DNA of 40,271 nucleotides from Pseudonocardia sp. (lineage in GTDB: Bacteria > Actinomycetota > Actinomycetes > Mycobacteriales > Pseudonocardiaceae), in assembly GCA_029263115.1 (NCBI GenBank), contig JAJCYC010000216.1, positions 1 to 40,271 of the forward strand. Direction: 5' to 3'. The position numbers were made by a program, and so were the translations under genes. This document shows, piece after piece, positions 6,565 to 34,853 of the stretch; positions within the stretch are counted from its first letter, which is position 1, and the number at the start of each line of letters is the position of its first letter. Under the pieces are notes generated by a model, which was not told the origin of the DNA, searched no databases, and saw only the letters and a program-made list of their open reading frames with translations.

Positions 6565-7440
6565 ATGGCCCATCGGCGCGCACGGACTTCGGCGCTCATC
6601 GCGGCGCTCTGCGGACTGCTGAGCTGCTCACCCGGCGGGCAGGCCGACGGCCGAGCAGCAGCCGCACCGGCTCCGGGACCGCTGATCGAGGCCGCGGTGG
6701 CCGCCGGGTTGCGCTCCCCGACGCTCACCGTGCTGGGCGGGTTGCCGCACGACACCACCGCCTGGACCCAGGGCCTGGAGATCGCCGACGGCGTGCTCTA
6801 CGAGGGCACCGGGCGCACCGGGCGCTCACAGCTGCGCGAGCTCGACCCGGCGACCGGGCGACTGCTGCGGGCCACCGACGTCCCGGAACCGCTGTACGGC
6901 GAGGGGATCACCGTGGTTGGCCCGCGGATCTGGCAGCTGACCTGGCGGGACGGGGTGGCGCTGGACTGGGACCGGGCGACGCTGCGACCCGGGCGCCGGG
7001 CGGACTGGACCGGTGAGGGCTGGGGGCTGTGCCGGACTCCGGCCGGGTCGCTGGTGGCCAGCGACGGCGGGGACCGGCTGCGGGTGCTCGATCCCGACAC
7101 ACTGCGACAGCGGGCGAGCGTGCCGGTGCGGATCGGCGGGCAGCCGCTGCGCGGGCTCAATGAGCTGGAGTGTGTCGACGGCGCGGTGTGGGCGAACGTG
7201 TTCGAGACCGACTGGTTGGTACGCATTGAGCTCGGCGCCGACCCGGCGGCCCCCGCGAACGGCACGAACGGCACCATCGGCACGGTGAGCGCGGCGGTGC
7301 GGGCCGCCGACCTGCTGGAGCCCGGCGAACGGGCCCGGGCCAGCGTGCTCAACGGGATCGCGGCGGTGCCCGGGACCGACGAGTTCCTGGTCACCGGGAA
7401 GCTGTGGCCGACGATCTTTCGGGTGCGATTCGACGGCTGA
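6565..7440 (+). CDS. Glutaminyl-peptide cyclotransferase (lipoprotein)
   Basis: Glutamine cyclotransferase of the five-bladed beta-propeller type, which converts N-terminal Gln of proteins to pyroglutamate. The export signal ends in a lipobox (ALCGLLSC, Cys at about residue 21), so the enzyme should be anchored outside the membrane. Family motifs are PHDTTAWTQGLEI, LYEGTGRTGRSQLRELD, YGEGITVVGPRIWQLTWRDG, GEGWGLCRTP, LNELECVDGAVWANVFETDW and the terminal VLNGIAAVPGTDEFLVTGKL. The length of 291 residues is normal. The ATG at 6565 gives a basic n-region directly before the hydrophobic stretch. No clear ribosome binding site is present, so a leaderless message is likely. Confidence 0.93.
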   Translation: MAHRRARTSALIAALCGLLSCSPGGQADGRAAAAPAPGPLIEAAVAAGLRSPTLTVLGGLPHDTTAWTQGLEIADGVLYEGTGRTGRSQLRELDPATGRLLRATDVPEPLYGEGITVVGPRIWQLTWRDGVALDWDRATLRPGRRADWTGEGWGLCRTPAGSLVASDGGDRLRVLDPDTLRQRASVPVRIGGQPLRGLNELECVDGAVWANVFETDWLVRIELGADPAAPANGTNGTIGTVSAAVRAADLLEPGERARASVLNGIAAVPGTDEFLVTGKLWPTIFRVRFDG

Positions 7441-7480
7441 GTCGGCCCGTCACGCCCGACGTGCGCCCGACGCCGCCGCG

Positions 7481-23185: not shown

Positions 23186-23953
23186 CTACCCGTCTGTCGG
23201 GTGCCCGACCGGCACGTTGCCGCTGCGGTATCCGACACCCCAGTCGGTCAGCACCACGGCCGGGCTGTCCGGGGAACGCTCGATCTTCCGACGCAGCCGC
23301 CGGATGTGCACGTCCAGCAGCCGTGTGTCGCCGAAGTAGTCATAACCCCAGATCCGTTCCAGCAGCTCCTCGCGGGTGACGGTGCGTCCGCCGGCGCCCA
23401 GGATCTCCAGCAGCAGCCGCAGCTCGGTACGGGTCAGGTGGATCTCGGTGCCGTCCCGACGGATGACCCCCCGCTCGGGCAGCACCTCCAACCCGTCGAT
23501 CAGCAAGTACTCCCGTAGGCCGGTGGCCGCCCCTCGGCGGCGCAGCAGGGCACGGATCCGGGCCGCCAGCACGCTGGCCACCAACGGCTTGGTCACGTAG
23601 TCGTCCGCGCCGGCCTCCAGGCCTCGCACCACGTCCGCCGCGTCCGATCGGGCGGTGACCATGATGATCGGCAGTCCTCCCCGATCGCGGACGGTCCGGC
23701 ACACCTGCAGCCCGTCGATCCCGGGCAGCATCAGGTCCAGCAGCATCACCTCGACCGGCGTCCGCTCGATCAGCCTCAACGCGGTCTCCCCGGAGGCCGC
23801 GGACACCACGTCGATTCCCTCATCGGCCAGGGCCAGTGCCAGGGCCTCCCGGATGTACACGTCGTCATCGACGAGAAGCGCTGTCGTCGGCATCGGATCG
23901 ATGCCGCCGCGCCGGCCGACGCGCGGCGCGGTGCGACCGGACGGGTGGGACAT
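23186..23953 (-). CDS. OmpR/PhoB-type response regulator, copy A
   Basis: Two-component response regulator and probable activator of cassette A. The receiver domain is complete: acidic pocket LLVDDD, acceptor Asp in VMLLDLMLPGIDG, Thr in MVTARSD and Lys in YVTKPL. The winged helix ends RLLDVHIRRLRRKIERSPDS, identical in the recognition helix to the copy B regulator. It differs from copy B mainly at the edges. ATG 23953 is preceded by GAGG at 5 nt and gives a 20-residue N-terminal extension; ATG 23893 (MPTTALLVDDD) matches copy B better and is the alternative. It is transcribed away from the P1-P3 genes of cassette A. No kinase gene adjoins it. Confidence 0.93.
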   Translation of the reverse strand: MSHPSGRTAPRVGRRGGIDPMPTTALLVDDDVYIREALALALADEGIDVVSAASGETALRLIERTPVEVMLLDLMLPGIDGLQVCRTVRDRGGLPIIMVTARSDAADVVRGLEAGADDYVTKPLVASVLAARIRALLRRRGAATGLREYLLIDGLEVLPERGVIRRDGTEIHLTRTELRLLLEILGAGGRTVTREELLERIWGYDYFGDTRLLDVHIRRLRRKIERSPDSPAVVLTDWGVGYRSGNVPVGHPTDG

Positions 23954-24143
23954 GTCGACCTCATCGGCCGGTTGTCGCCTGCGCGTCACCCGACCGGTAT
24001 ACCTCTCGGCCGAGCACGAGCAGACCCCGAGGAAGGGCCCGATCCGCAACGTCGGCCGATCGTCAGGTTCGGACGCCGTCGCGGGCGGTGACGGGCGGCT
24101 GGCGTCATCCGGCCCGGGCCGGGCCGGTGCTCGGTGCCGGGTA

Positions 24144-24208
24144 GTCGCAACCTTGTCAGACGATCGTCGGAATTTGTCACCTGAGCTCGAACCCGGCGTC
24201 CTTATCGT
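24144..24208 (+). promoter_or_regulatory. Regulator box and -10 element of cassette A, P1 promoter
   Basis: Direct half-sites GTCGC (24144), GTCAG (24155) and GTCGG (24166) have an 11-bp period. The core GTCAG-ACGATC-GTCGG spans 24155-24170. A TATCGT -10 box lies at 24203-24208, exactly 48 nt from the core start. No TTGACA-like -35 is present (CCTGAG at the expected place), as for an activator-dependent promoter. The same layout recurs at three other promoters in this window. Confidence 0.75.
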
Positions 24209-24215
24209 GCTCCGC

Positions 24216-24245
24216 ATGCTCGACGACTCGTGGCTTCCCACTTGA
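24216..24245 (+). CDS. Leaderless 9-codon upstream ORF before P1 of cassette A
   Basis: ATG 24216 lies 7 nt after the -10 box and opens the short frame MLDDSWLPT, with TGA at 24243-24245. That stop overlaps the TTG start of the P1 gene by two bases. Copy B has a leaderless 18-codon frame ending in the same kind of overlap, although the peptide sequences are unrelated. The likely role is to deliver ribosomes to P1 by translational coupling rather than to make a peptide. Confidence 0.45.
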   Translation: MLDDSWLPT

Positions 24246-25705
24246 CCACCACCAGCGACCGCGCCTCGGCCGACGTGGCACCCGGGCCCGCCGATCGCTG
24301 GTTCGGGAGCCGCGAACAGCTGCGCTGGTTCGTGACGTTGTGGGTGATGGCGGCCGCGCTGCACTACACAGACAGCAACCCGAGGGCGGTCCTGCCGATC
24401 CTGGCTTTCGGGCTGCCCGCCCTGCTGTTCCCCACCAATCTCTGGGCAGTGGGGCTCTTCGTGGCGCTGGTCGCGGTCGACGGTGCCCTCGCCCTGCCCG
24501 CGCCGGCCAATCACAAGATGGTCAACCTGCTCGTCGCATTGGCCCTCACGGCCGCCGCGCTGTGTGCGGTGGCCACCCGCGACAACGGCGAGCCGTTCGT
24601 GCACCGCTGGTTGGCCGCCGCGCGCACGCCGGTCGGGTTGACGCTGCTCGTGGTCTATCTGTTCACCGTCGTCCACAAGCTCAACACCGCGTTCTTCGAT
24701 CCCGCCGTCTCCTGCGCCGGGCATCTGTTCCGACAGATGGCCGGGTTGAACGGGCTGGGCCGGCTCGAACTCAACCCCACCGCCGGGTGGGCCCTGGCGG
24801 TGGGCACGGTCGCCGTCGAAGCGGCCATCCTGGTGCTGTTGGCGGTACCACGCCTGCGTCCGTGGGGCCTGCTGGTGGGAATCAGCTTCCATGCGCTGCT
24901 CGCGCCGGCGTCGTTCTGGGATTTCGCCACCGTGGTCTTCGCGCTGTACGTCCTTCTGGTCCCGAACCGGGTGTTCGCCGAGCTGGCGCCGCGATTCCAG
25001 GTCGTCCGCCGGTGGGCGTTGGGTGCGTTCGCGGTGCACCTGATCATGAGCGCCGGAGCGAGCTACACCGGCACTGAGGTCAGCCCCTACGGCCTGACCT
25101 GGCACACTCTGCAGGTACTCACCTGGTACGCCATCGTGCTGCCCCTGATGCTGCCGCTGCTCGACGCCTGCCTGATCGACCGGCACCGCCGGGACGACCC
25201 GGCCAGCGCGTGGCCCGTCTGGCGGTGGCGTCCACTGGCCCTGCTCGTCGTGCCGCTGTTGGCGTTCGCCAACGGGGCGATGCCCTACCTGGGGCTCAAG
25301 ACCGTCTCCAGCTTCTCGATGTTCTCCAACCTGCACACCGAGCAGGGCGCCGCCAACCATCTCCTGCCCGGGCTGTCCGCGCTGCACGTGGTCGACTACC
25401 AGCGCGATGTGGTGACGGTGACCCAGGTGGATGGGCCCAGGGGCACCCTGGGTAAATCCAAGTGGCTGAGGGAACGCACTGCGGTCACCGTCCCCTGGCT
25501 GGAGCTGCGGCGGGTGGTTGGGCGCTGGAACGACGCCAGCATACACCCGGTCCGAGTGGACTACCTGCGTAACGGCACGCCCTACTCGGCGCCCGACGCC
25601 ACCAGCGACCCCGAACTCGGCCGGCCGCTGCCATGGTGGCAGCGCACCCTGCTCGCCTTCCGCGCCATCGACTCCGGCGACGGGCCCGACCACTGCCGCT
25701 GGTGA
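24242..25705 (+). CDS. HTTM-like multi-spanning membrane protein, P1 copy A
   Basis: Membrane protein of 487 residues with about ten hydrophobic segments (residues ~15-365) and a C-terminal extracytoplasmic-type domain of about 120 residues. Its core motif FTVVHKLNTAFFDPAVSCAG (Lys146) resembles the AGxxKL-x3-W segment of HTTM/vitamin-K-dependent carboxylase proteins, where the second Lys is the catalytic base. The tail begins KTVSSFSMFSNLHTEQGAAN. It is the counterpart of the gene at 29463; the motifs REQLRWF, LHYTD, FHALLAPASFWDFATVV, PYLGLKTV and FSMFSNL are shared. TTG 24242 is chosen by alignment with copy B and by overlap with the upstream ORF; GTG 24230 is in frame. Enzymatic activity is unproven. 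Confidence 0.8.
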   Translation: MTTTSDRASADVAPGPADRWFGSREQLRWFVTLWVMAAALHYTDSNPRAVLPILAFGLPALLFPTNLWAVGLFVALVAVDGALALPAPANHKMVNLLVALALTAAALCAVATRDNGEPFVHRWLAAARTPVGLTLLVVYLFTVVHKLNTAFFDPAVSCAGHLFRQMAGLNGLGRLELNPTAGWALAVGTVAVEAAILVLLAVPRLRPWGLLVGISFHALLAPASFWDFATVVFALYVLLVPNRVFAELAPRFQVVRRWALGAFAVHLIMSAGASYTGTEVSPYGLTWHTLQVLTWYAIVLPLMLPLLDACLIDRHRRDDPASAWPVWRWRPLALLVVPLLAFANGAMPYLGLKTVSSFSMFSNLHTEQGAANHLLPGLSALHVVDYQRDVVTVTQVDGPRGTLGKSKWLRERTAVTVPWLELRRVVGRWNDASIHPVRVDYLRNGTPYSAPDATSDPELGRPLPWWQRTLLAFRAIDSGDGPDHCRW

Positions 25706-25724
25706 CGCTGCGGCGGACCGAAGC

Positions 25725-25778
25725 GTCGGCCAATCGTCAGCTGACCTGGCCGTCGAGCCCTCGGCAGCGCCCTAGGGT
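25725..25778 (+). promoter_or_regulatory. Regulator box and -10 element of cassette A, P2 promoter
   Basis: GTCGG-CCAATC-GTCAG at 25725-25740 is followed 48 nt from its first base by TAGGGT (25773-25778). Six bases later comes the GTG of P2, so transcription should start at the start codon. The element starts 20 bp after the P1 stop and gives P2-P3 their own regulated promoter. Confidence 0.75.
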
Positions 25779-25784
25779 GCCCGG

Positions 25785-26294
25785 GTGACTCCAGAGCGTG
25801 CGCACGACTGGTCGGGACCGGAGCGGCTGTGGGCCGCGCTGGTCACCAGTGGGGTCCTCGCGGCGGCGCTGCTGCCGCTGCGGCAGTACCGCAGCCCCCG
25901 CGCCGAACGGGTCGATGGCTTCCCGATGTCGTACTACCCCATGTTCAGCGCGGTCCGCGAGCAGTACGGGACAGTGGCGTACGCAGTGGCCGTGCACGCC
26001 GACGGTACCCGCGATCCACTGCCGCACCATGTCCTGGGCCCAGGCGGGGTCAACCAGGTACGCAAGCAGCTGTCCCGCGCCGTCCGGCGCGGCCGCGAAG
26101 AGCGGTACGCCCAGCTGATCGCCGAGCGGGTACCCGGCAGTCCCGAGTGCGCGCACGTGGTGCGGGTGGAGATCGTCCGGGGTCGGTTCGACCTCGACGC
26201 CTGCCTGCTCACGGGGAGGGTGCACGGCGAGGAGACGCTGCTCGCGGCTGCGGCCGTGGCACGAGGCGGTGCCTCGAACGTGACGGCGGCATGA
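25785..26294 (+). CDS. Single-TM protein, P2 copy A
   Basis: Protein of 169 residues: a short N-terminal cytoplasmic part, one membrane helix (LWAALVTSGVLAAALLPL), and a soluble domain. The domain starts with the conserved motif GFPMSYYPMFSAVRE and contains VAYAVAVHADGTRDPLPHHV, NQVRKQLSRAV and VVRVEIVRGRFDLDACLL. Copy B at 31016 has the same layout and motifs. The MFS(A/N)xR part recalls FSMFSNLxTE in the P1 tail, so P2 may carry the same kind of domain as P1. No known enzymatic motif. GTG 25785 is supported by the -10 box 6 nt upstream. The ATGA overlap at its 3' end couples it to P3. Confidence 0.78.
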   Translation: MTPERAHDWSGPERLWAALVTSGVLAAALLPLRQYRSPRAERVDGFPMSYYPMFSAVREQYGTVAYAVAVHADGTRDPLPHHVLGPGGVNQVRKQLSRAVRRGREERYAQLIAERVPGSPECAHVVRVEIVRGRFDLDACLLTGRVHGEETLLAAAAVARGGASNVTAA

Positions 26295-27148
26295 GGGCGC
26301 CGGCGGCGCGGCTGGGCCTGACCCGGATCGCGGTCGGTGGATACACGATGTGGTACCTCCTCAAGCAACGACGGAAGTTCCACAAGATCGCGGCGAACGA
26401 CGCCGAGCTGTTCGCGCCGGTCGGCGCGACCCGCCTGCTGAGCCGGCCGCTGCCATCCCCGGTCGCCGCGAAGCTGGTGGATGCCACGCTGGTCAGCACC
26501 GCGCTGTTCACCGTCGGCGCTGGCCACCGGGTGGTCGGGCCGGTACACGCGGCACTGCTGAGTTGGACCCTGTCCTACCGCAACTCCTGGTCGATGGTGT
26601 TCCACAGCGAGAACACCCTGCTGTGGCACACCCTGATCCTGGGCGCCGCCCGGGCCACCGACGCCACCTCGGTCGACGCGCTGATCACCCGGCGGGCACC
26701 TGGCGGGGAACATCCGCGATACGATTGGCCGTTGCGCGCGATGCGGGGCGCGTCCTCGGCGACCTACCTGCTCTCGGGGGTGGCCAAGGTTGCCGGCCCG
26801 GCTGGGTGGCAGTGGGCCAGTGGCAGCCAGATGCGCCGCCAGGTCGCCATGGACCAGATCCGCAAGGAACGCTACGGCTCGCACCGCGGCGAGCGGGTGG
26901 CGCAGCTGCTCTACCCGCAGCGGCGGCTCTTCACCGCGTTCGCCGCGAGCGCGCTGGTGCTGGAGCTGGGCGCGCCGTTGGCGATGCTCGATCCCCGGCT
27001 CGGCCGGGTCTGGGCGGCCGCCACATACGGCATGCACTGGGGCATCCGGGCGATCATGGGCATCCGGTTCCGCTACCAGCTCAGCGGGGCCGCATTCGCG
27101 CCCTGGCTCGAGCTGGAGCGGCTGTTCACCCGGATCCGACCGCGCTGA
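26291..27148 (+). CDS. HTTM-domain membrane protein, P3 copy A
   Basis: Polytopic protein of 285 residues with about seven hydrophobic segments. The segment YLLSGVAKVAGPAGWQWASG (Lys166) aligns with the conserved AGxxKLxxxW segment of vitamin-K-dependent carboxylase and HTTM proteins, including the lysine used as catalytic base there. Other family-like parts are SWTLSYRNSWSMVFHSENTL (a motif shared with copy B) and TYGMHWGIRAIMGIRFRYQL. The ATG overlaps the P2 stop (ATGA), so the two are co-translated. HTTM proteins in bacteria mostly lack an assigned function. It ends 58 bp before the convergent histidine kinase gene. Confidence 0.82.
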   Translation: MRAPAARLGLTRIAVGGYTMWYLLKQRRKFHKIAANDAELFAPVGATRLLSRPLPSPVAAKLVDATLVSTALFTVGAGHRVVGPVHAALLSWTLSYRNSWSMVFHSENTLLWHTLILGAARATDATSVDALITRRAPGGEHPRYDWPLRAMRGASSATYLLSGVAKVAGPAGWQWASGSQMRRQVAMDQIRKERYGSHRGERVAQLLYPQRRLFTAFAASALVLELGAPLAMLDPRLGRVWAAATYGMHWGIRAIMGIRFRYQLSGAAFAPWLELERLFTRIRPR

Positions 27149-27206
27149 TCGGTGCCCGGCCGATCGGTGCCCGTGCGGCCCGTCGAGGGTTTCGTGGCGT
27201 GGGCGC

Positions 27207-28595
27207 TCACCCGCCGAGATCGCCGCGGGCCAGGGGTAGCTCCACTACGAACCGCGCGCCCGGACCGCCCGGACGGTCCTGCACCCACACCTCGCCACCG
27301 TGCCGCAACACGTGCTGCGCGACCAGCGCCAGCCCGAGGCCGCTGCCGCCGTCGCGGCCGCGGTCACCGGAGCGGTTGCCGCGAGCGAACCGCTCGAACA
27401 CCTCGCGGCGCAGCTCCGCCGGCACCCCGGGCCCGGCGTCATCGACCTCCAACCGGGCCCGGTCACCGTCGCGCAGCACGCCGACCCGGATCGCGCCACC
27501 GGCGTGCCGGGCGGCGTTGTCCAGCAGGTTCGCCACCACCCGCTCCAGTCGGCGCCGGTCGGCCAGCACGGCGGGGTGCGGCTCGGCGAGCTCCAGCGGG
27601 ATCGTGTCGTGCCGGGCGGCCAGCGTCTGGCGGACCAGCTCGGCGAAGTCGCACAGCTCGCTCTGGTCGTCGACGCTGTCGTCGCGGGAGATCTCCAGCA
27701 GGTCGGTGACCATCTGTCGAAACCGTTCCAGGTCGGCGGTGAGCAGTCGCAATGCGTGCCGGCCGGCCGGCGGGAGCAGGTCCTGGCGCCGGTTCAGCAC
27801 CTCCGAGGCGTTGATCATGGTGGTGAGCGGCGAGCGCAGCTCGTGGCTGACGTCGGCGGCGAACCTGCTGTCCCGGGCCACCCGCCGTTCGAGCGCGGCC
27901 GTGGTGCGGTTGAAGGTGACCGCGAGCGCGGCCAGGTCAGGGTCGCTGTCCTCGGGCAGCCTGGCCCGCAGGTCCCCGCCGGCCACCCGGCCGGCGGTCC
28001 GGGTCAGCTGGGTCAAGGGGCTCAGCGCCTGGCGTCCGGCCCACCACCCCAGCCCCAGACCGAGCACCACGCTGGCGCCCAGCCCGGCGATCAGCTCGGC
28101 CCGGACGAACCGCAGGGTCTGCTCCAGCTCGGTGACCGTGGTCAGCTCCAGGTAGACCACCTCGAACTCGGGCAGCGGGGTGGCCACCGCGAACATCGAC
28201 AACCCGTCGACCACGGCGCGCTTCGGCTCGGCCGGCTCGCCCGGCACAAGCAGCGATTCGTCCAGCACCCGCTGCAACTCCGCCGGCTCGACCATCCGCC
28301 CGGTCGCCGTCCACCCGCCGCCGCGGCGCAGTGCGACCGTGTCGTCCTGGTCGTGGGCCAGCTCGGCGAGCACCTGCCGGGACCCGGCGGCCGGGTTGCG
28401 CTGCAGGTAGCCGGAGAGTATCCGGACGTTGGCGGCGGCCTCCAGGGCGGCGCCGCGCCGGCGCTGGTCGAGCATGTAGTCCGAGGCCAGACTCCAGGTG
28501 AGCAGCGCGAGTAGTCCGGTGACCAGCGACGCGGCCAGCGCGAACGCCACCGCCACCCGCCAGCGCAGCGGTAGCCGACGGCGGTGCTCGGTCAT
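27207..28595 (-). CDS. Sensor histidine kinase
   Basis: Membrane-bound kinase of 462 residues. TM1 is residues 12-34, the extracytoplasmic sensor is about 35-165, and TM2 follows (LIAGLGASVVLGLGLGWWAG). A HAMP linker contains SPLTQLTRTAGRVAGGDL. The DHp helix has RFAADVSHELRSPLTTM, with the phosphorylated His. The ATPase lobe shows NLLDNAARH (N-box), DDAGPGVP (G1), FERFARG (F-box) and GSGLGLALVAQH (G2). The overall layout is MtrB-like. It starts 19 bp after the stop of the copy B regulator and is therefore its cognate kinase. It is the only kinase in the window and may also serve the copy A regulator. The signal is unknown; the sensor carries no recognisable binding fold. Confidence 0.94.
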   Translation of the reverse strand: MTEHRRRLPLRWRVAVAFALAASLVTGLLALLTWSLASDYMLDQRRRGAALEAAANVRILSGYLQRNPAAGSRQVLAELAHDQDDTVALRRGGGWTATGRMVEPAELQRVLDESLLVPGEPAEPKRAVVDGLSMFAVATPLPEFEVVYLELTTVTELEQTLRFVRAELIAGLGASVVLGLGLGWWAGRQALSPLTQLTRTAGRVAGGDLRARLPEDSDPDLAALAVTFNRTTAALERRVARDSRFAADVSHELRSPLTTMINASEVLNRRQDLLPPAGRHALRLLTADLERFRQMVTDLLEISRDDSVDDQSELCDFAELVRQTLAARHDTIPLELAEPHPAVLADRRRLERVVANLLDNAARHAGGAIRVGVLRDGDRARLEVDDAGPGVPAELRREVFERFARGNRSGDRGRDGGSGLGLALVAQHVLRHGGEVWVQDRPGGPGARFVVELPLARGDLGG

Positions 28596-28614
28596 GACGG
28601 GGTCATCGCCGGGG

Positions 28615-29298
28615 TCACGATTCGCGCAGCCGGTACCCGATGCCGCGCACGGTGAGGATCACCGTGGGCCGGTCCGGGTGCCGCTCGACCTTGCGCCGCA
28701 GCCGGCGGATGTGCACGTCGAGCAGGCGGGTGTCGCCGAAGTAGTCGTAGCCCCAGACCCGTTGCAGCAGCTCCTCCCGGGTGACGATGCGGCCCTGGGC
28801 GCCGGCGATCTCCAGGAACAGCCGCAGCTCGGTGCGGGTCAGGTGCAGGTCGACTCCGTCGCGGCGGACCACGCCGTGCTCGGGCAGCACCTCCAGACCG
28901 TCGATCCGCAGCGGCTCGGGCTGCCCGCCCACCGGGGCCCGCCGACGCAGCAGCGCCCGGATCCGGGCCGCGAGCACGCTGGCCACCAGCGGCTTGGTCA
29001 CGTAGTCGTCGGCGCCGGCCTCCAGCCCCTTGATCACGTCGGCGGCGTCCGCCCGGGCGGTGATGATGATGATCGGCAGCTCGCCGCGCTGGCGCAGGGT
29101 CTGACACACGGTCAAGCCGTCGATGCCGGGAAGCGTCAGGTCCAGCAGCACCACGTCGACCGTCGCGCTGCCGGTCAACTCCAGGGCCTGTTCGCCGGAC
29201 ACCGCCGGGACGACCTGGATGCCCTCGTCGGTCAGCGCGAGGGTGAGTGCCTCGCGGATGCCCGCGTCGTCCTCCACCAGAAGGGCGCTGGTACCCAC
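28615..29298 (-). CDS. OmpR/PhoB-type response regulator, copy B
   Basis: Response regulator of 227 residues. The receiver has LLVEDD, acceptor Asp in VVLLDLTLPGIDG, Thr in IITARAD and Lys in YVTKPL, all intact. The DNA-binding domain has TRTELRLFLEIAGAQGR, WGYDYFGDTRLLDVHIRRLR and a final TVRGIGYRLRES. Recognition helix and wing agree almost residue for residue with copy A, so both should read the same DNA sites. GTG 29298 (VGTSALLVEDD) is the preferred start because it lines up with the copy A core; upstream starts, such as TTG 29358, would overlap the regulator box. It is transcribed divergently from P1 copy B and followed by the kinase. Confidence 0.94.
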   Translation of the reverse strand: MGTSALLVEDDAGIREALTLALTDEGIQVVPAVSGEQALELTGSATVDVVLLDLTLPGIDGLTVCQTLRQRGELPIIIITARADAADVIKGLEAGADDYVTKPLVASVLAARIRALLRRRAPVGGQPEPLRIDGLEVLPEHGVVRRDGVDLHLTRTELRLFLEIAGAQGRIVTREELLQRVWGYDYFGDTRLLDVHIRRLRRKVERHPDRPTVILTVRGIGYRLRES

Positions 29299-29349
29299 CG
29301 AACCACTACTCCCTCCGCCGGCGACGTCGATGCAACGGCCGTCGCGGTT

Positions 29350-29403
29350 GTCAGACAATCGTCAGGCAATTTCAAGATCAGTGGGTCAGGTCACATTTAG
29401 TCT
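29350..29403 (+). promoter_or_regulatory. Regulator box and -10 element of cassette B, P1 promoter
   Basis: GTCAG-ACAATC-GTCAG at 29350-29365 is the most perfect copy of the element. TAGTCT (29398-29403) follows 48 nt from its first base. Further half-sites GTCAG (29385) and GTCAC (29390) lie between. It also sits 52 bp before the start of the divergent regulator gene and could control that gene too. Confidence 0.78.
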
Positions 29404-29409
29404 TCCGCC

Positions 29410-29466
29410 GTGGCCGATCACGGTACCGACCCCGCCGGGTCGACCCCGCGACCGGGACCGTCATGA
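29410..29466 (+). CDS. Leaderless 18-codon upstream ORF before P1 of cassette B
   Basis: GTG 29410 lies 6 nt after the -10 box and opens a frame of 18 codons (begins ADHGTDPAG, ends PRPGPS) whose TGA at 29464-29466 overlaps the ATG of P1 (ATGA). Copy A has the same arrangement with an unrelated 9-codon peptide. Coupling of P1 translation to a leaderless start is the probable purpose. Confidence 0.45.
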   Translation: MADHGTDPAGSTPRPGPS

Positions 29467-30938
29467 CCACGATCGCCCGCCCCGGATACGGCGGGGCCAC
29501 CGCCAGCGAACCGGCCCCGATGGTGGACGGCCGCCGGGAGCAGCTGCGCTGGTTCACCACCCTCTGGGCGATGGCCGCGGTGCTGCACTACACCGACGCC
29601 GACCCGATGGACGCGCTGCCGTTGCTGGTGGTCGCGCTCCCTGCGCTGCTGCTGCCCGCCAACCCCTGGACGCTGGGCGCGCTGCTCGCCGGTACCGGGT
29701 TCACCGCCACCCAGGCGCTGCCCTCGGCGGCCAACCACAAGGTGGTCGGCCTGCTGGTCGCGCTGTCGTTCGCGGCGGCGGCGCTGGCAGTGACGCTCGC
29801 CGGGCGGCGACACCGGCCGCCGGATGCGGAACCGGCGTGGGCGGTGCGCTGGCTGGCGGCGGCCTGGACGCCGGTCGGGCTGACGCTGCTCGTGGTGTAC
29901 CTGTACACCGTCTTCCACAAACTGAACGGCTCCTTCTTCGACCCGGAGCACTCCTGTGCCGGCGACCTGCTGCGCCAGGGGCTCGGGATGAACGGGCTGG
30001 GCCGCCCGGAGCTGCCGCCGGGCGTGGTGCTGACCGCCGCGGTGGGCACCGTCGCCGTGGAGGCGGTGATCCTGGCGCTGCTCGCGGTCCCCCGGCTGCG
30101 CTGCTGGGGGGTGCTGCTCGGGGTGGGATTCCACGCCGTGCTGGCGCCGGCGTCGTTCTGGGACTTCGCCACCGTCGTCTACGCGCTCTACGTGCTGCTG
30201 ATCCCGCCCAGGGTGTTCGCCCGGCTGGCACCCCGGTTCGCCGCCGCGCGACGTGTGTCGCTGGCGGCGTTCGCGGCGCACGTGGGGGTCAGCTTCGGGA
30301 TCCGGCTGGCCGGCGCGGAGGACCCGGCGTGGCACACCGTCCAGCTGCTGACCTGGTACGCCGCCGTCCTGCCGCTGATGATCCCGCTGGTCCGGGCCTG
30401 CCTGGCCGAACGCCCCCGGCGCGGCCGGCCGAACACCGCATGGCCCGGCTGGCGGTGGCGGCCGGCCGCCCTGCTGCTCGTCCCGCTGCTCGCGTTCCTC
30501 GTCGGCGCCACCCCCTACCTGGGTCTGAAGACGGTGGCCAACTTCTCGATGTTCAGCAACCTGCGCACCGAACAGGACTCCACCAACCACCTCCTGTCCG
30601 CAGTGGCCGCCCTGCAGATCGCGGACTACCAGCGCGAGACGGTGACCGTGGCGTCGGTCGAGCTGCCGCGGGGCTCGGGCGCCCGCAAGCCCCGCTGGGT
30701 GCGCGAGCTGCCCTACGTGGTCATCCCGTGGCAGGAGCTGCGCCGCACGGTTGCGTTGTGGCGCGAGGACGGTGTGGTCGGGGCCCGGTTGGAGTACCTG
30801 CGCGACGGGAGGTGGTACACCATCACCGACGCGGTCAGCGACCCCGCGCTGGCCGAGCCGATGCCGTGGTGGGAGCGCCACCTGCTGTCCTTCCGGGCGA
30901 TCAACTCCGGCGCCGGTGCCGACCGCTGCCGCTGGTGA
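29463..30938 (+). CDS. HTTM-like multi-spanning membrane protein, P1 copy B
   Basis: Membrane protein of 491 residues, the paralogue of the protein at 24242. It has about ten hydrophobic segments, then a soluble tail. The HTTM-like core is LYTVFHKLNGSFFDPEHSCA (Lys153). WGVLLGVGFHAVLAPASFWD continues into FATVVYALYVL. The tail starts KTVANFSMFSNLRTEQDSTN and holds ALQIADYQRETVTV. Both copies end with a short motif INSGxGxDRCRW. The ATG at 29463 overlaps the stop of the leaderless upstream ORF. The function may concern a modification or transport reaction at the membrane; this is only an inference from the HTTM relation. Confidence 0.82.
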   Translation: MTTIARPGYGGATASEPAPMVDGRREQLRWFTTLWAMAAVLHYTDADPMDALPLLVVALPALLLPANPWTLGALLAGTGFTATQALPSAANHKVVGLLVALSFAAAALAVTLAGRRHRPPDAEPAWAVRWLAAAWTPVGLTLLVVYLYTVFHKLNGSFFDPEHSCAGDLLRQGLGMNGLGRPELPPGVVLTAAVGTVAVEAVILALLAVPRLRCWGVLLGVGFHAVLAPASFWDFATVVYALYVLLIPPRVFARLAPRFAAARRVSLAAFAAHVGVSFGIRLAGAEDPAWHTVQLLTWYAAVLPLMIPLVRACLAERPRRGRPNTAWPGWRWRPAALLLVPLLAFLVGATPYLGLKTVANFSMFSNLRTEQDSTNHLLSAVAALQIADYQRETVTVASVELPRGSGARKPRWVRELPYVVIPWQELRRTVALWREDGVVGARLEYLRDGRWYTITDAVSDPALAEPMPWWERHLLSFRAINSGAGADRCRW

Positions 30939-30955
30939 GCCCGGCCTACCGCTTC

Positions 30956-31009
30956 GTCAGGCGATCGTCAGCCTACGGCCCCTGGGACACGGCGGACCGG
31001 CTCTAGCCT
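30956..31009 (+). promoter_or_regulatory. Regulator box and -10 element of cassette B, P2 promoter
   Basis: GTCAG-GCGATC-GTCAG at 30956-30971 is followed 48 nt from its first base by TAGCCT (31004-31009). Six bases later the ATG of P2 begins, so the message should be leaderless. The element starts 18 bp after the P1 stop, the same position as in copy A. Confidence 0.78.
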
Positions 31010-31015
31010 CTGGCC

Positions 31016-31594
31016 ATGGATGAGCGGGACGGGCGACCGACCACCCCCGGGTGCTGGGCGGCGCGCGAACGTGGGTCGCTCGCGCTGAAGGGCGTGTTGA
31101 TCCTCGGCGCGGTGCTCTACCCGCTCAAGGAGTACCGCCGCCCGCGGGCCAGCCGGATCGACGGGTTCCCGCTGTCGTACTACCCGATGTTCAGCAAGAA
31201 CCGCGGACCTCGCGCCCGGGTGGCCTACGCGGTCGGGATCACCGCCGATGGCACCCGCCAGCACCTGCCGCACAGAGCGGTCGGCGAAGGCGGGGAGAAC
31301 CAGGTCCGACACCAGCTCTACCGGGTCGCGGTCAAGCAGGGCCAGGCCCAGGAGTTCGCCGACTCACTGGCCGCGCGCATCGCGGACAACCCGCGTTACC
31401 CGGATCTCGTCCGGGTGGAGATCGTGCACGGCCGGTTCGACCTCGACGAGTGCATGCTCACCCGCCGGTTCCAGGGCGAGGAGACCGTGCTGGCCGTTGC
31501 CGAGCTGCCGCGTGGGTCGCTCGCCGTGCTCCTGCCGGACGCAGCTCCGGGACCTGCCCGAACAGCGGCTGATCCCGCACCGATGGCCGGGTGA
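31016..31594 (+). CDS. Single-TM protein, P2 copy B
   Basis: Protein of 192 residues, counterpart of the one at 25785. A membrane helix (LALKGVLILGAVLYPL) is followed by GFPLSYYPMFSKNRGPRARV, VAYAVGITADGTRQHLPHRA, NQVRHQLYRVAVKQG and RVEIVHGRFDLDECMLTRRF. It has a longer C-terminal tail (LPDAAPGPARTAADPAPMAG) than copy A. ATG 31016 lies 6 nt after the -10 box. P3 starts 3 nt after its stop. No enzyme motif is recognised; it may be a partner subunit of P3. Confidence 0.78.
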   Translation: MDERDGRPTTPGCWAARERGSLALKGVLILGAVLYPLKEYRRPRASRIDGFPLSYYPMFSKNRGPRARVAYAVGITADGTRQHLPHRAVGEGGENQVRHQLYRVAVKQGQAQEFADSLAARIADNPRYPDLVRVEIVHGRFDLDECMLTRRFQGEETVLAVAELPRGSLAVLLPDAAPGPARTAADPAPMAG

Positions 31595-31597
31595 CGG

Positions 31598-32488
31598 GTG
31601 TCGCTGATCGCGCGCACGCTGGGGCGGGTCTCCGGGGCGCCGCCCGAGCGGCTCGGTGTGGCCCGGTTGTTGATCGGCGGCTACACGCTGCACTACCTGG
31701 GGAAGCGTCGGAGAATGCTGCGCCAGGTCTCGCGTACCGACCCCGCCCTGTTCGCGCCGATGGGCCCGGTGCGGGCACTGTCCCGGCCAACACCGCCCCG
31801 GGTGGCCGACCTGATCAACGACGCCACCCTGGCCAGCAGCCTGCTGTTCGCCATCGGGGTGGGCCACCGGGTGGTCGGGCCGGCGCACTCCGCGCTGCTC
31901 ACCTGGACCCTGTCGTACCGCAACTCGTGGTCGAAGATCTACCACAACGACAACACGCTGGTCCTGCACACGATCATGCTGGGCGTCTCGCCGGCGGCCG
32001 ACGCGGTGGCCCTGTCATCGGTGACGAGAGCTGACCGGTGTCGCGGCCCCGCTCATCCCCGCTACAGCTGGCCGCTGCACCTGATGAACGCCACCTCCAC
32101 CGCTACCTACCTGCTGGCCGGGATCGCCAAGGTGGCCGGACCCAGCGGCTGGGCCTGGGCGGACGGCGACCAACTCCGCCGGCACATCGCGATCGACGCG
32201 GTCCGCAAGGCGGTCTACGGCAAGCCGGCCGGCCCGGCCGGGCATACGCTCTACCGGCACCGCGCACTGTTCACCGCGCTGGCGGCCGGCTCGCTCGCGG
32301 TGGAGCTGCTTGCACCGCTGGCGCTGATCGACCGCCGCCTGGGACGGTTGTGGGCGGTGTCAGCGTTCGGTATGCACTGGGGGATTCGCGCCATCATGGG
32401 CATCAAGTTCCGTTACCAGCAATCAGGGGTGTCCTTCGCTCCCTGGTTCGACCTGGAGCGGCTGCTCCGCGCGGGCGGGCGCCGGTGA
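31598..32488 (+). CDS. HTTM-domain membrane protein, P3 copy B
   Basis: Protein of 296 residues, counterpart of the one at 26291. Shared motifs are GHRVVGPxHxALLxWTLSYR, NSWSKIYHNDNTLVLHTIML, TYLLAGIAKVAGPSGWAWAD (Lys178, in the HTTM AGxxK position), FGMHWGIRAIMGIKFRYQQS and FAPWFDLERLL. About seven hydrophobic segments. The start is GTG 31598, giving MSLIARTLGRVSGAPPERL. The stop TGA overlaps the GTG of the following CNNM gene (GTGA), so the operon of copy B continues into the transporter pair, unlike copy A. Confidence 0.83.
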   Translation: MSLIARTLGRVSGAPPERLGVARLLIGGYTLHYLGKRRRMLRQVSRTDPALFAPMGPVRALSRPTPPRVADLINDATLASSLLFAIGVGHRVVGPAHSALLTWTLSYRNSWSKIYHNDNTLVLHTIMLGVSPAADAVALSSVTRADRCRGPAHPRYSWPLHLMNATSTATYLLAGIAKVAGPSGWAWADGDQLRRHIAIDAVRKAVYGKPAGPAGHTLYRHRALFTALAAGSLAVELLAPLALIDRRLGRLWAVSAFGMHWGIRAIMGIKFRYQQSGVSFAPWFDLERLLRAGGRR

Positions 32489-33843
32489 CCGGCACCGTCC
32501 TCAGCGTCCTGCTCGGCATTCTGATCGTTCTGCTCATCACCGCGCTGACCGGCTACTTCGTCGCCCAGGAGTTCGGCTACATGGCCGTGGACCGCTCGGC
32601 GCTGCGCGCCCGGGCGAACGACGGCGACACCGCCGCGCGCCGGGCGCTGGACATCACCGAGCGCACCTCGTTCATGCTGTCCGGCGCGCAGTTCGGGATC
32701 ACCGTGACCGGTCTGGTGGTCGGCTACGTCGCCGAGCCGCTGATCGGCGCGGGGATCGGTGAGCTGCTCGGCACGACCGGCGTGCCGGCCGGCGTCGGGC
32801 TGGCCGTGGGCACCGCGCTGGCGCTGCTGCTGGCCACCGCGGTGCAGATGGTGTTCGGCGAGCTGTTCCCGAAGAACCTGGCCATCGCCCGGCCGGAACC
32901 GGTGGCCCGGCGGCTGGCCCTGTCCACCGGGCTGTACCTGCGGGCGTTCGGCTGGGTGATCCGGATCTTCGACGGTGCGTCCAACCGGCTGTTGCGGGCG
33001 GTACGGATCGAGCCGGTGCACGACGTGGAGCACGCCGCCAACCCACGCGACCTGGAAGCCATCATCGACCGATCCCGGGACAGCGGTGATCTGCCCCCCG
33101 CGCTGTCCACCCTGCTCGACCGGGTGCTCGACTTCGCCGAGCGCACCGCCGGCGAGGCCATGACACCCCGGCCCCGGGTGGCCACCGTGCCCGCCGACGC
33201 GCCGCTGGCCGCGCTGGTCGACCAGATGGCCAGCGGCCACTCCCACTACCCGGTGGTCGGGGCCTCGGTGGACGAGGTCCTCGGGGTGGTCCACCTGCGC
33301 GACGTGCTCGGCGTGCCCCGAGGCGGCCGGGTGGCGCGGGAGCTGGCCCGGGAGGCGCTGTTCGTGCCGGACGCACTGCCGCTGTCCGCCGTGCTGGAGC
33401 AACTGCGCGCGGCCGGTGAGGAGCTGGCCTGCGTGCTCGACGAGTACGGCGGGCTGGCCGGGGTGATCACCATGGAGGACATCGCCGAGGAGCTGGTCGG
33501 CGAGATCACCGACGAGCACGACCCGGGCGGCCCCGACCTCGCTACCGCGCTCCGGGCCGGCGGCTGGACCGTCCCGGGTGGGATGCACGTGGACGAGGTG
33601 GAGCGGCTGATCGACCACGATCTGCCGGTCGGGCACTACAGCACCATCGGCGGGCTGGTGGTCAGCGAGCTCGGCAACCTGCCCGAACCGGGCGACACCG
33701 TCCGGCTGGTGCTGCCCGCGCCGTCCGACCTCGGCGAGCCCGGCGAGCGGGTGCTGGCGCTCACCGTGCACGCGGTGGAGCGCCGGGTGCCCGGGCGGAT
33801 CGAGCTGCGCTGGATCGACGACACCGGGCGGGTCCCGACGTGA
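32485..33843 (+). CDS. CNNM/CorC-type hemolysin family protein
   Basis: Protein of 452 residues with the full HlyC/CorC architecture: the DUF21/CNNM membrane domain (about 1-190, FVAQEFGYMAVDRSALRARA, LSGAQFGITVTGLVVGYVAE, VFGELFPKNLAIARPE), two CBS domains (AMTPRPRVATVPADAPLAAL and LDEYGGLAGVITMEDIAEEL), and the C-terminal CorC_HlyC transporter-associated domain (GGMHVDEVERLIDHDL, YSTIGGLVVSELGNLPEPGD). Members are implicated in Mg2+ or Co2+ efflux and membrane integrity. It overlaps the P3 stop by GTGA and the next gene by GTGA, so it is translationally coupled in the cassette B operon. Confidence 0.94.
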   Translation: MTGTVLSVLLGILIVLLITALTGYFVAQEFGYMAVDRSALRARANDGDTAARRALDITERTSFMLSGAQFGITVTGLVVGYVAEPLIGAGIGELLGTTGVPAGVGLAVGTALALLLATAVQMVFGELFPKNLAIARPEPVARRLALSTGLYLRAFGWVIRIFDGASNRLLRAVRIEPVHDVEHAANPRDLEAIIDRSRDSGDLPPALSTLLDRVLDFAERTAGEAMTPRPRVATVPADAPLAALVDQMASGHSHYPVVGASVDEVLGVVHLRDVLGVPRGGRVARELAREALFVPDALPLSAVLEQLRAAGEELACVLDEYGGLAGVITMEDIAEELVGEITDEHDPGGPDLATALRAGGWTVPGGMHVDEVERLIDHDLPVGHYSTIGGLVVSELGNLPEPGDTVRLVLPAPSDLGEPGERVLALTVHAVERRVPGRIELRWIDDTGRVPT

Positions 33844-34853
33844 GCCCGCTGACCGCGGCGGTGATCGGGGCCGGGTTGATCGCGCTGAGCGCGTTCTTCG
33901 TGGCCGCCGAGTTCGCGCTGGTCGCCTCCCGCCAGCACCGACTGGAAGCCGCGGCGGGCCGCAGTCGGGCGGCCCGGGCGGCACTGCGCAGCGCCCGCGA
34001 CCTGTCCATGCTGCTCGCCGGCAGCCAGCTGGGCATCACCCTGTGCACGCTGGGCCTGGGCGCGGTGGCCAAGCCGGCCGTGCACGACCTGCTGATGCCG
34101 GTGCTGCAGGGGGTGGGTCTACCCGAGGCGACCGCCGACGTGCTCGCGTTCCTGCTGGCGCTGCTGATGGTGACCTTCCTGCACCTGGTGGTCGGTGAGA
34201 TGGCGCCGAAGTCGTGGGCCATCGCGCACCCGGAGCGCTCCGCGACCCTGCTGGCGCTGCCGATGCGCGGGTTCATGGTGGCCACCCGGCCGCTGCTGGT
34301 GCTGCTCAACGGAGTGGCCAACGCCTGCCTTCGCCGGGTCGGTGTGCAGCCTGTCGACCAGGTCGCCAGCAGCCGCAACCCGGCGACCCTGCGCGAGCTG
34401 GTCGACCACTCGGCCCGGGCCGGCACGCTCGGCACCGACCGCCGCGACCAGCTGCTGACCGCGCTGGACCTCGACACTGCGGTGCTGGGCAGCCTGGTCC
34501 GACCGGGCGCCGAGATTGCCGGGGCGGACGCCGACGACGACGTCGCCCGGATCCGGCAGGTGGCCTCGGGCAGCGGGCACCTGCGGCTGGCGGTGCGCCG
34601 GGACGCGATTCCGGTCGGGGTGGTGCACGTGCGCGATACCCTGGCCGCCGATCCCCGGGCCACCGCCGGGGAGCTGATGCGCCCGGTGTCCGCGCTGCCC
34701 GCGCAACTGCCCGTCTACCAGGCGTTGAGCACGATGCGGCGCCGGCGCAGCCAGTTCGCGTTGGTCGAGGACGGCCCGCGGGTGGTCGGGCTGGTGACCA
34801 TGCAGGACCTGCTGGACCGGTTGCTACCGCACGCCGGACCGGACCCTCGCTGA
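33840..34853 (+). CDS. CNNM/CorC-type protein without CorC_HlyC domain
   Basis: Protein of 337 residues. The CNNM membrane domain (FVAAEFALVASRQHRLEAAA, LLAGSQLGITLCTLGLGAVA, VVGEMAPKSWAIAHPE) is followed by a CBS pair (ELMRPVSALPAQLPVYQALS, ALVEDGPRVVGLVTMQDLLD). The C-terminal CorC_HlyC domain of its upstream partner is absent, which is common for the second member of such actinobacterial pairs. The pair probably forms a hetero-oligomer. GTG 33840 overlaps the preceding stop. The gene ends the operon; the next gene is 79 bp away. Confidence 0.93.
   Translation: MSPLTAAVIGAGLIALSAFFVAAEFALVASRQHRLEAAAGRSRAARAALRSARDLSMLLAGSQLGITLCTLGLGAVAKPAVHDLLMPVLQGVGLPEATADVLAFLLALLMVTFLHLVVGEMAPKSWAIAHPERSATLLALPMRGFMVATRPLLVLLNGVANACLRRVGVQPVDQVASSRNPATLRELVDHSARAGTLGTDRRDQLLTALDLDTAVLGSLVRPGAEIAGADADDDVARIRQVASGSGHLRLAVRRDAIPVGVVHVRDTLAADPRATAGELMRPVSALPAQLPVYQALSTMRRRRSQFALVEDGPRVVGLVTMQDLLDRLLPHAGPDPR

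Follow-up and report, generated by a model that had tools for sequence, protein, structure and literature searches.

A GTCAG direct-repeat element at a fixed distance from predicted -10 boxes in a duplicated two-component gene cluster of Pseudonocardia

A window of 40,271 nt (the whole stretch of DNA analysed, contig C216 of a 5.1-Mb Pseudonocardia sp. draft genome in 377 contigs) carries a duplicated membrane-protein cassette together with two OmpR/PhoB-family response regulators, RR1 and RR2, and a sensor histidine kinase. The genes are arranged in the order RR1(-), P1a-P2a-P3a(+), kinase(-), RR2(-), P1b-P2b-P3b(+), followed by two CNNM/CBS genes, and the copies are 59% (P1), 54% (P2), 57% (P3) and 75% (RR) identical in pairwise comparison. 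This layout raises the question of how the two cassettes are controlled, and by which regulator. A short direct repeat was found upstream of both P1 genes and both P2-P3 units. It is quite likely to be an operator of the OmpR/PhoB type, located at about -60 to -45, through which the response regulators encoded next to it would activate these genes together.

In the first-pass annotation, GTCRG-N6-GTCRG had been reported at 24155, 25725, 29350 and 30956, each time with TANNNT 48 nt on; all four sites and distances were found to be exact. A fifth core on the + strand, at 24051, had been overlooked. The cores and the predicted -10 boxes are the following.

24051..24066, + strand: fifth operator-like core, GTCGGCCGATCGTCAG, between RR1 and P1a, 104 bp upstream of the 24155 core
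24155..24170, + strand: operator before P1a, GTCAGACGATCGTCGG
24203..24208, + strand: predicted -10 box TATCGT (P1a), 48 nt from the operator start
25725..25740, + strand: operator before P2a, GTCGGCCAATCGTCAG
25773..25778, + strand: predicted -10 box TAGGGT (P2a), 48 nt from the operator start
29350..29365, + strand: operator before P1b, GTCAGACAATCGTCAG
29398..29403, + strand: predicted -10 box TAGTCT (P1b), 48 nt from the operator start
30956..30971, + strand: operator before P2b, GTCAGGCGATCGTCAG
31004..31009, + strand: predicted -10 box TAGCCT (P2b), 48 nt from the operator start

The half-sites form a direct repeat with an 11-bp period at all five cores. The inner six bases read NCRATC in 5/5 of them, giving the 16-mer GTCRGNCRATCGTCRG. 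At 24051, no TANNNT is present at +48 (CTGGCG stands there); this core could be an auxiliary site or serve the control of RR1. A sixth loose match to GTCRG-N6-GTCRG in the window lies at 7456 on the - strand. The claim that the four promoters have no -35 consensus was borne out, the best hexamer having 2-3 of 6 bases (spacers 15-19). This absence proves nothing, because TANNNT promoters of M. tuberculosis typically lack a -35 element (PMC3898074).

The loose core occurs six times in the window against 1.56 expected, and none of 100 shuffles reached six. By itself it is weak evidence, because the whole genome holds 215 matches against 114 for the reversed pattern. In a first-order simulation on local composition, the probability that all four spacers agree in any TANNNT offset out of 25 was about 2e-9. 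The + strand of the window has TANNNT-N6/7-RTG at five places, four of these being the promoters listed above. A chance repeat was rejected on the shuffles, on the spacing simulation and on the confinement of the 16-mer, whose only exact copies in the 5.1-Mb genome are the five of this cluster. The first-pass annotation had named hundreds of functionally unrelated, equally spaced matches as a result that would speak against the operator; such numbers are reached by the loose core (215) and not by the 16-mer (5). At one mismatch, 12 further matches to the 16-mer were found outside the window (reversed pattern, 5), and GTCAG-N6-GTCAG has 6 sites in the rest of the 5.1 Mb. The genome check for TANNNT outside the cluster covered these two sets, and the hexamer stands at +48 in 0/12 and 0/6 of the sites, respectively. 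A wide regulon in the source genome, as the 215 loose matches might have indicated, was rejected on these counts. On contig C222, two one-mismatch operator-like words lie 48 nt apart (32290 and 32338), with no TANNNT at +48; the pair apparently lies in an internal repeat, the flanks being similar.

The regulators had 42 matches in the genus, and 30 loci were examined. GTCAG-N6-GTCAG was present near these homologues at 21 sites in 18 of the 30 loci (109 kb), and control half-site spacers of 5, 7, 8, 16 and 17 gave 0, 1, 0, 0 and 0 sites in the same loci; for comparison, the source genome outside the window has 6 such sites in all. Without the three cassette-linked loci described below, 16 of 27 had a site, two of the 16 coming from near-identical genomes. 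A spacer of 4 (9-bp period) gave 9 sites near the 30 homologues; GTCAG-N4-GTCAG was rejected as an operator variant, as 9/9 lie inside kinase reading frames. In other species, ten proteins whose genes lie close to regulator-linked sites may be targets; among them are NosD/beta-helix proteins (two), an SPW repeat protein and a GDSL lipase, and four were assigned to no family.

The pattern GTCRGNNRATCGTCRG was matched 126 times, in 53 of the 62 genomes of the genus, and its reversal once. The reversed control was set aside as unfair: CTA, part of the reversed word, is scarce in DNA of this kind. Spacing and position were relied on instead. The sites read were 119 of the 126 (left out were five, one repeat from a near-identical genome and one of the source genome), and 117 had enough sequence downstream. 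Around the 48 GTCAG/GTCAG sites of the genus, TANNNT was found nine times between +16 and +129. Seven of these lie at 48-50, a range picked after inspection of the data: two in the window and the others at loci L057, L061, L170, L253 and L292. No TANNNT offset recurred within any of the other three half-site classes, which hold 24155, 25725 and L268 (at 49), and the many GTCGG/GTCGG matches in the genus had no promoter features. The 48-nt rule covers fewer sites than the operator does.

Three loci of two other species combine a cassette gene with a regulator of the same clade as RR1 and RR2 (clade support 97/91). Each has one operator, with TANNNT at +48 (L061), +49 (L057) and +48 (L059). In L061 (P. 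spinosispora), the operator is one mismatch off the 16-mer and lies between a divergent regulator-kinase pair and P2-P3. L057 (P. eucalypti) has the exact 16-mer about 5 kb from the regulator; here an ATG follows 6 nt after TANNNT, before a frameshifted P2 remnant. The operator of L059 (P. eucalypti) has two mismatches. GTCAG-N6-GTCAG was found in 0/9 Pseudonocardia cassette-gene loci without a regulator (5 P2-P3, 4 solo P1), where 'without' means none in the sequence stretch examined around the locus; two of the P2-P3 contigs are short. Ten solo P1 loci of genus g27 lacked it as well, and 68 P3 relatives of other taxa had one match among them, without a -10 box. The nine regulator-free loci include four of the source genome, two P2-P3 loci (contigs C226 and C340) and two solo P1 genes (contigs C319 and C132), none with an operator in the stretch examined. 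In L057, the P2 remnant (from 13402) is followed by a frame that by eye resembles CNNM, and in L059 a shortened kinase match (6632-6964) stands beside the regulator. The frameshifted P2 remnant and the shortened kinase are signs of decay of the system in P. eucalypti.

Several observations weigh against the element as the operator of these regulators. No GTCAG-N6-GTCAG lies within 1.5 kb in 12 of the 30 homologue loci, and presence of the site is unclustered on the regulator tree (8 changes, and 66 of 500 shuffles needed no more). Outside the genus, 0/12 homologue loci have the site, the GTCRG version occurring at 2. With the looser GTCRG half-site, the preference for spacer 6 is blurred (23 sites, against 20, 3, 11 and 6 at spacers 4, 5, 7 and 8), and 41 of the 48 GTCAG/GTCAG sites of the genus have no TANNNT at 48-50. 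In L057, a search allowing two mismatches gave no GTCRG-N6-GTCRG upstream of the intact P2-P3 unit that adjoins the regulator, and the P1 and regulator genes have only weak one- or two-mismatch matches and no TANNNT-N6/7-RTG. The L059 operator faces the regulator gene and not P3, and P3 itself has only two-mismatch matches, without TANNNT. The gaps in L057 and L059 mean that the operator does not stand at every unit near a regulator. Conservation at orthologous cassettes, which the first-pass annotation had proposed as a check, was seen per locus with a regulator (3/3) but did not extend to every unit (exceptions are P2-P3 and P1 of L057 and P3 of L059).

The position of about -60 to -45 follows from taking TANNNT as the -10 box. 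The original proposal, an operator of OmpR/PhoB type at that position with direct repeats of 11-bp period, is supported by the confinement of the 16-mer, by the element's presence at the regulator-linked relatives and absence from the nine Pseudonocardia cassette-gene loci without a regulator, and by its frequency beside regulator homologues of the genus with a strict half-site spacing. Members of this family recognise strictly spaced direct repeats as tandem dimers (PMC4832192). Phosphorylated RR1 and/or RR2 would bind as a tandem dimer to the two GTCAG half-sites, one helical turn apart, and the bound protein would aid RNA polymerase at promoters that have TANNNT as their -10 box but lack a recognisable -35. 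Having an operator copy of their own at both P1 genes and both P2-P3 units, the two cassettes would form one small regulon. Activation from just upstream of the polymerase is the simplest reading, and the effect is probably an activating one.

The distance between the predicted -10 boxes and the translation starts is short. The reading frames concerned are the following.

24216..24245, + strand: 9-codon open reading frame (ORF) before P1a, ATG 7 nt past the -10 box, stop overlapping the P1a TTG start (TTGA)
24242..25705, + strand: P1a, membrane protein, TTG start; GTG at 24230 is an alternative start
25785..26294, + strand: P2a, GTG start, 6 nt past the -10 box
26291..27148, + strand: P3a, HTTM-like membrane protein
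29410..29466, + strand: 18-codon ORF before P1b, GTG 6 nt past the -10 box, stop overlapping the P1b ATG start (ATGA)
29463..30938, + strand: P1b
31016..31594, + strand: P2b, ATG start, 6 nt past the -10 box
31598..32488, + strand: P3b, HTTM-like membrane protein, its model matching the membrane part of vitamin K gamma-carboxylase

From the first T of TANNNT to the start codon there are 12 nt for P2a, P2b and the ORF before P1b, and 13 nt for the ORF before P1a; a rule for leaderless genes puts the start codon some 12 bp past the hexamer's beginning or thereabouts, with TANNNT as the -10 box (PMC3160421). The ATG or GTG at 6-7 nt past each -10 box suggests that the P2 mRNAs are leaderless and that short leaderless ORFs overlap the P1 starts. 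P1 would then be translated after the short ORF and coupled to it. Translation of P1a could instead begin at GTG 24230. L061 has a 19-codon ORF before P2 that ends in ATGA and starts 12 nt past the -10 box; its peptide and those of the P1a and P1b ORFs are unrelated. Mycobacterial leaderless transcripts and coupled small ORFs (PMC4633059) share with these an RTG at the transcript start, which is predicted here, an RTGA-type overlap to the next gene and an unconserved peptide. The present ORFs, predicted from sequence, differ in the TTGA overlap at P1a and in the later start in L061. The P1 arrangement also resembles termination-reinitiation (PMC6728339). Directly 3' of P3b, two CNNM/CBS transporter-like genes (32485-34850) may share its transcription unit.

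The two regulators and the kinase are encoded on the opposite strand.

23186..23893, - strand: RR1, OmpR/PhoB-family response regulator; an alternative longer start at 23953 is possible
27207..28595, - strand: sensor histidine kinase with HAMP, HisKA and HATPase_c
28618..29298, - strand: RR2, OmpR/PhoB-family response regulator

RR1 and RR2 have Response_reg receiver and Trans_reg_C winged-helix domains above the gathering scores. Residues D11, D12, D54 and K103 are invariant in 12 aligned regulators that include both proteins, so that the phospho-acceptor Asp of the receiver and its acidic pair are kept. The nearest named model is MtrA, the cut-off of which was missed by both (NF040689, 300 bits; RR1 232.3, RR2 233.7), as was that of CseB (NF041733, 350 bits; RR1 210.5, RR2 221.3). 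The cluster has one kinase gene for the two regulators, and RR1 has no adjacent kinase. A defence-family search returned nothing meaningful, its two matches of RR2 being weak and receiver-like.

The matching cores might be functionless leftovers, given that the cluster is a duplicated cassette at the identities listed at the outset, or they might be due to chance; either origin is scarcely credible. Among the four promoters the cores are identical in pairs at 12-14/16 positions, against 7-14/32 for the spacers and 22-41/100 for the 100 nt upstream, and the P1 promoters do not duplicate those of P2. With spacers as unrelated as these, duplication fails to explain the shared spacing; the element is, moreover, present in two other species, and a duplication leftover was rejected. 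The sign of the control is left open by position alone: the same operator and regulators could repress, or activate at some promoters and repress at others. In S. coelicolor, the related regulator MtrA acts on bldD as a repressor through direct-repeat sites (PMC5650626), and a core without a -10 box at +48 is present at 24051. A core that stops 32 bp before the -10 box, without overlap and at the same distance at four -35-less promoters, suits activation better, and repression, whether at all or at some of the promoters, is considered unlikely. MtrA shares much of its recognition helix with related regulators, this helix being largely common within the subfamily. A real operator read by another OmpR-family protein, such as MtrA (the closest named model) or a paralogue, instead of RR1 or RR2 would agree with this, and is rendered very improbable by the sites themselves, which adjoin RR1, RR2 and homologous regulators throughout the genus and were missing from the nine cassette-gene loci that lack such a regulator.

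Whether both regulators act on both cassettes is a separate matter. Each might control its own cassette only, or the kinase-less RR1 might be inactive, the matching operators having been inherited; at 75% identity, RR1 and RR2 may differ in binding. Such a division of labour or loss of RR1 function is a possibility, if a doubtful one: the four cores are no closer within a cassette than between cassettes, and RR1 keeps its receiver Asp residues. Sharing by RR1 and RR2 would draw mainly on the near-identical operators and on the single kinase for two regulators. The near-identical helices (common helix DTRLLDVHIRRLRRK) lend it weak support, because homologues without GTCAG-N6-GTCAG within 1.5 kb carry the same helix. 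It is proposed tentatively that one kinase and two duplicated regulators act through one shared operator ahead of all transcription units of the duplicated membrane module, which is gamma-carboxylase-like; an external signal would thereby switch on the bacterial vitamin K carboxylase relative in both copies at once. Joint activation through an OmpR/PhoB-type operator bound by the neighbouring regulators is the reading preferred here.

The probable operator of the cluster represents an already known type of gene control in clean form. The PhoP box of M. tuberculosis (PMC4832192) likewise has two head-to-tail half-sites with an 11-bp period, bound by an actinobacterial OmpR/PhoB-family regulator; it is a 7-bp TCACAGC repeat with a 4-bp spacer, whereas here a GTCAG half-site and a local regulon of one cluster are predicted. 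The MtrA recognition sequence also consists of two short direct repeats for an OmpR-family regulator, but MtrA sites are loosely conserved (PMC5650626) and RR1/RR2, at 232 and 234 bits, stay below the 300 bits set as the cut-off for MtrA. MprA of C. glutamicum is a two-component regulator of envelope genes in an actinobacterium, with sites just upstream of promoters; its motif TKTTAAGAAM is a different sequence and is not reported in PMC12113857 as a GTCAG direct repeat. SARP activators such as AfsR share the OmpR-type DNA-binding domain, 11-bp direct repeats and a fixed distance to the -10 box, but their 3' repeat lies 8 bp from the -10 (PMC10936776), whereas the second half-site here ends 32 bp before it, and RR1/RR2 have a receiver domain. 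Among the papers listed by the literature searches, including those on Pseudonocardia, there was no GTCAG direct-repeat operator of a response regulator. The element provides a precise candidate operator for a Pseudonocardia response-regulator subfamily, and two paralogous regulators with near-identical sites are a natural test of target sharing versus division after duplication. The predicted control is linked to the P1, P2 and P3 gene families, and the inducing signal could be a way into P2-P3 function.

P1, P2 and P3 had no Pfam match at E 0.001. With the HTTM model, P3b reached 14.6 bits, below the gathering score of 27.7; at a permissive limit (E up to 10), 7 of 9 P3 members had an HTTM match, the best at 6.5e-5. 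In a PDB structure search with the P3 model (pLDDT 78), GGCX (vitamin K gamma-carboxylase) occupied ranks 1-16; ranks 1-15 had probability 1.00, a TM score by query length of 0.59-0.68 and 15-18% identity. The P3 model has the fold of the GGCX membrane part. For the P1 model the best matches were also GGCX (E 0.03, TM 0.33), too weak for a fold assignment. A scan of genome contigs with P2b only gave no relative, a plasmid search with P3b gave no match, and a literature search gave no paper on HTTM and gamma-carboxylase in bacteria. By record titles, P2-P3 pairs occur in Actinobacteria, Chloroflexi, Acidobacteria, Bacteroidetes and others. In loci L073-L146, P2-P3 forms a two-gene unit in scattered phyla, mostly without this regulator nearby, and in Aquimarina and relatives the P3 reading frame of the unit is longer.

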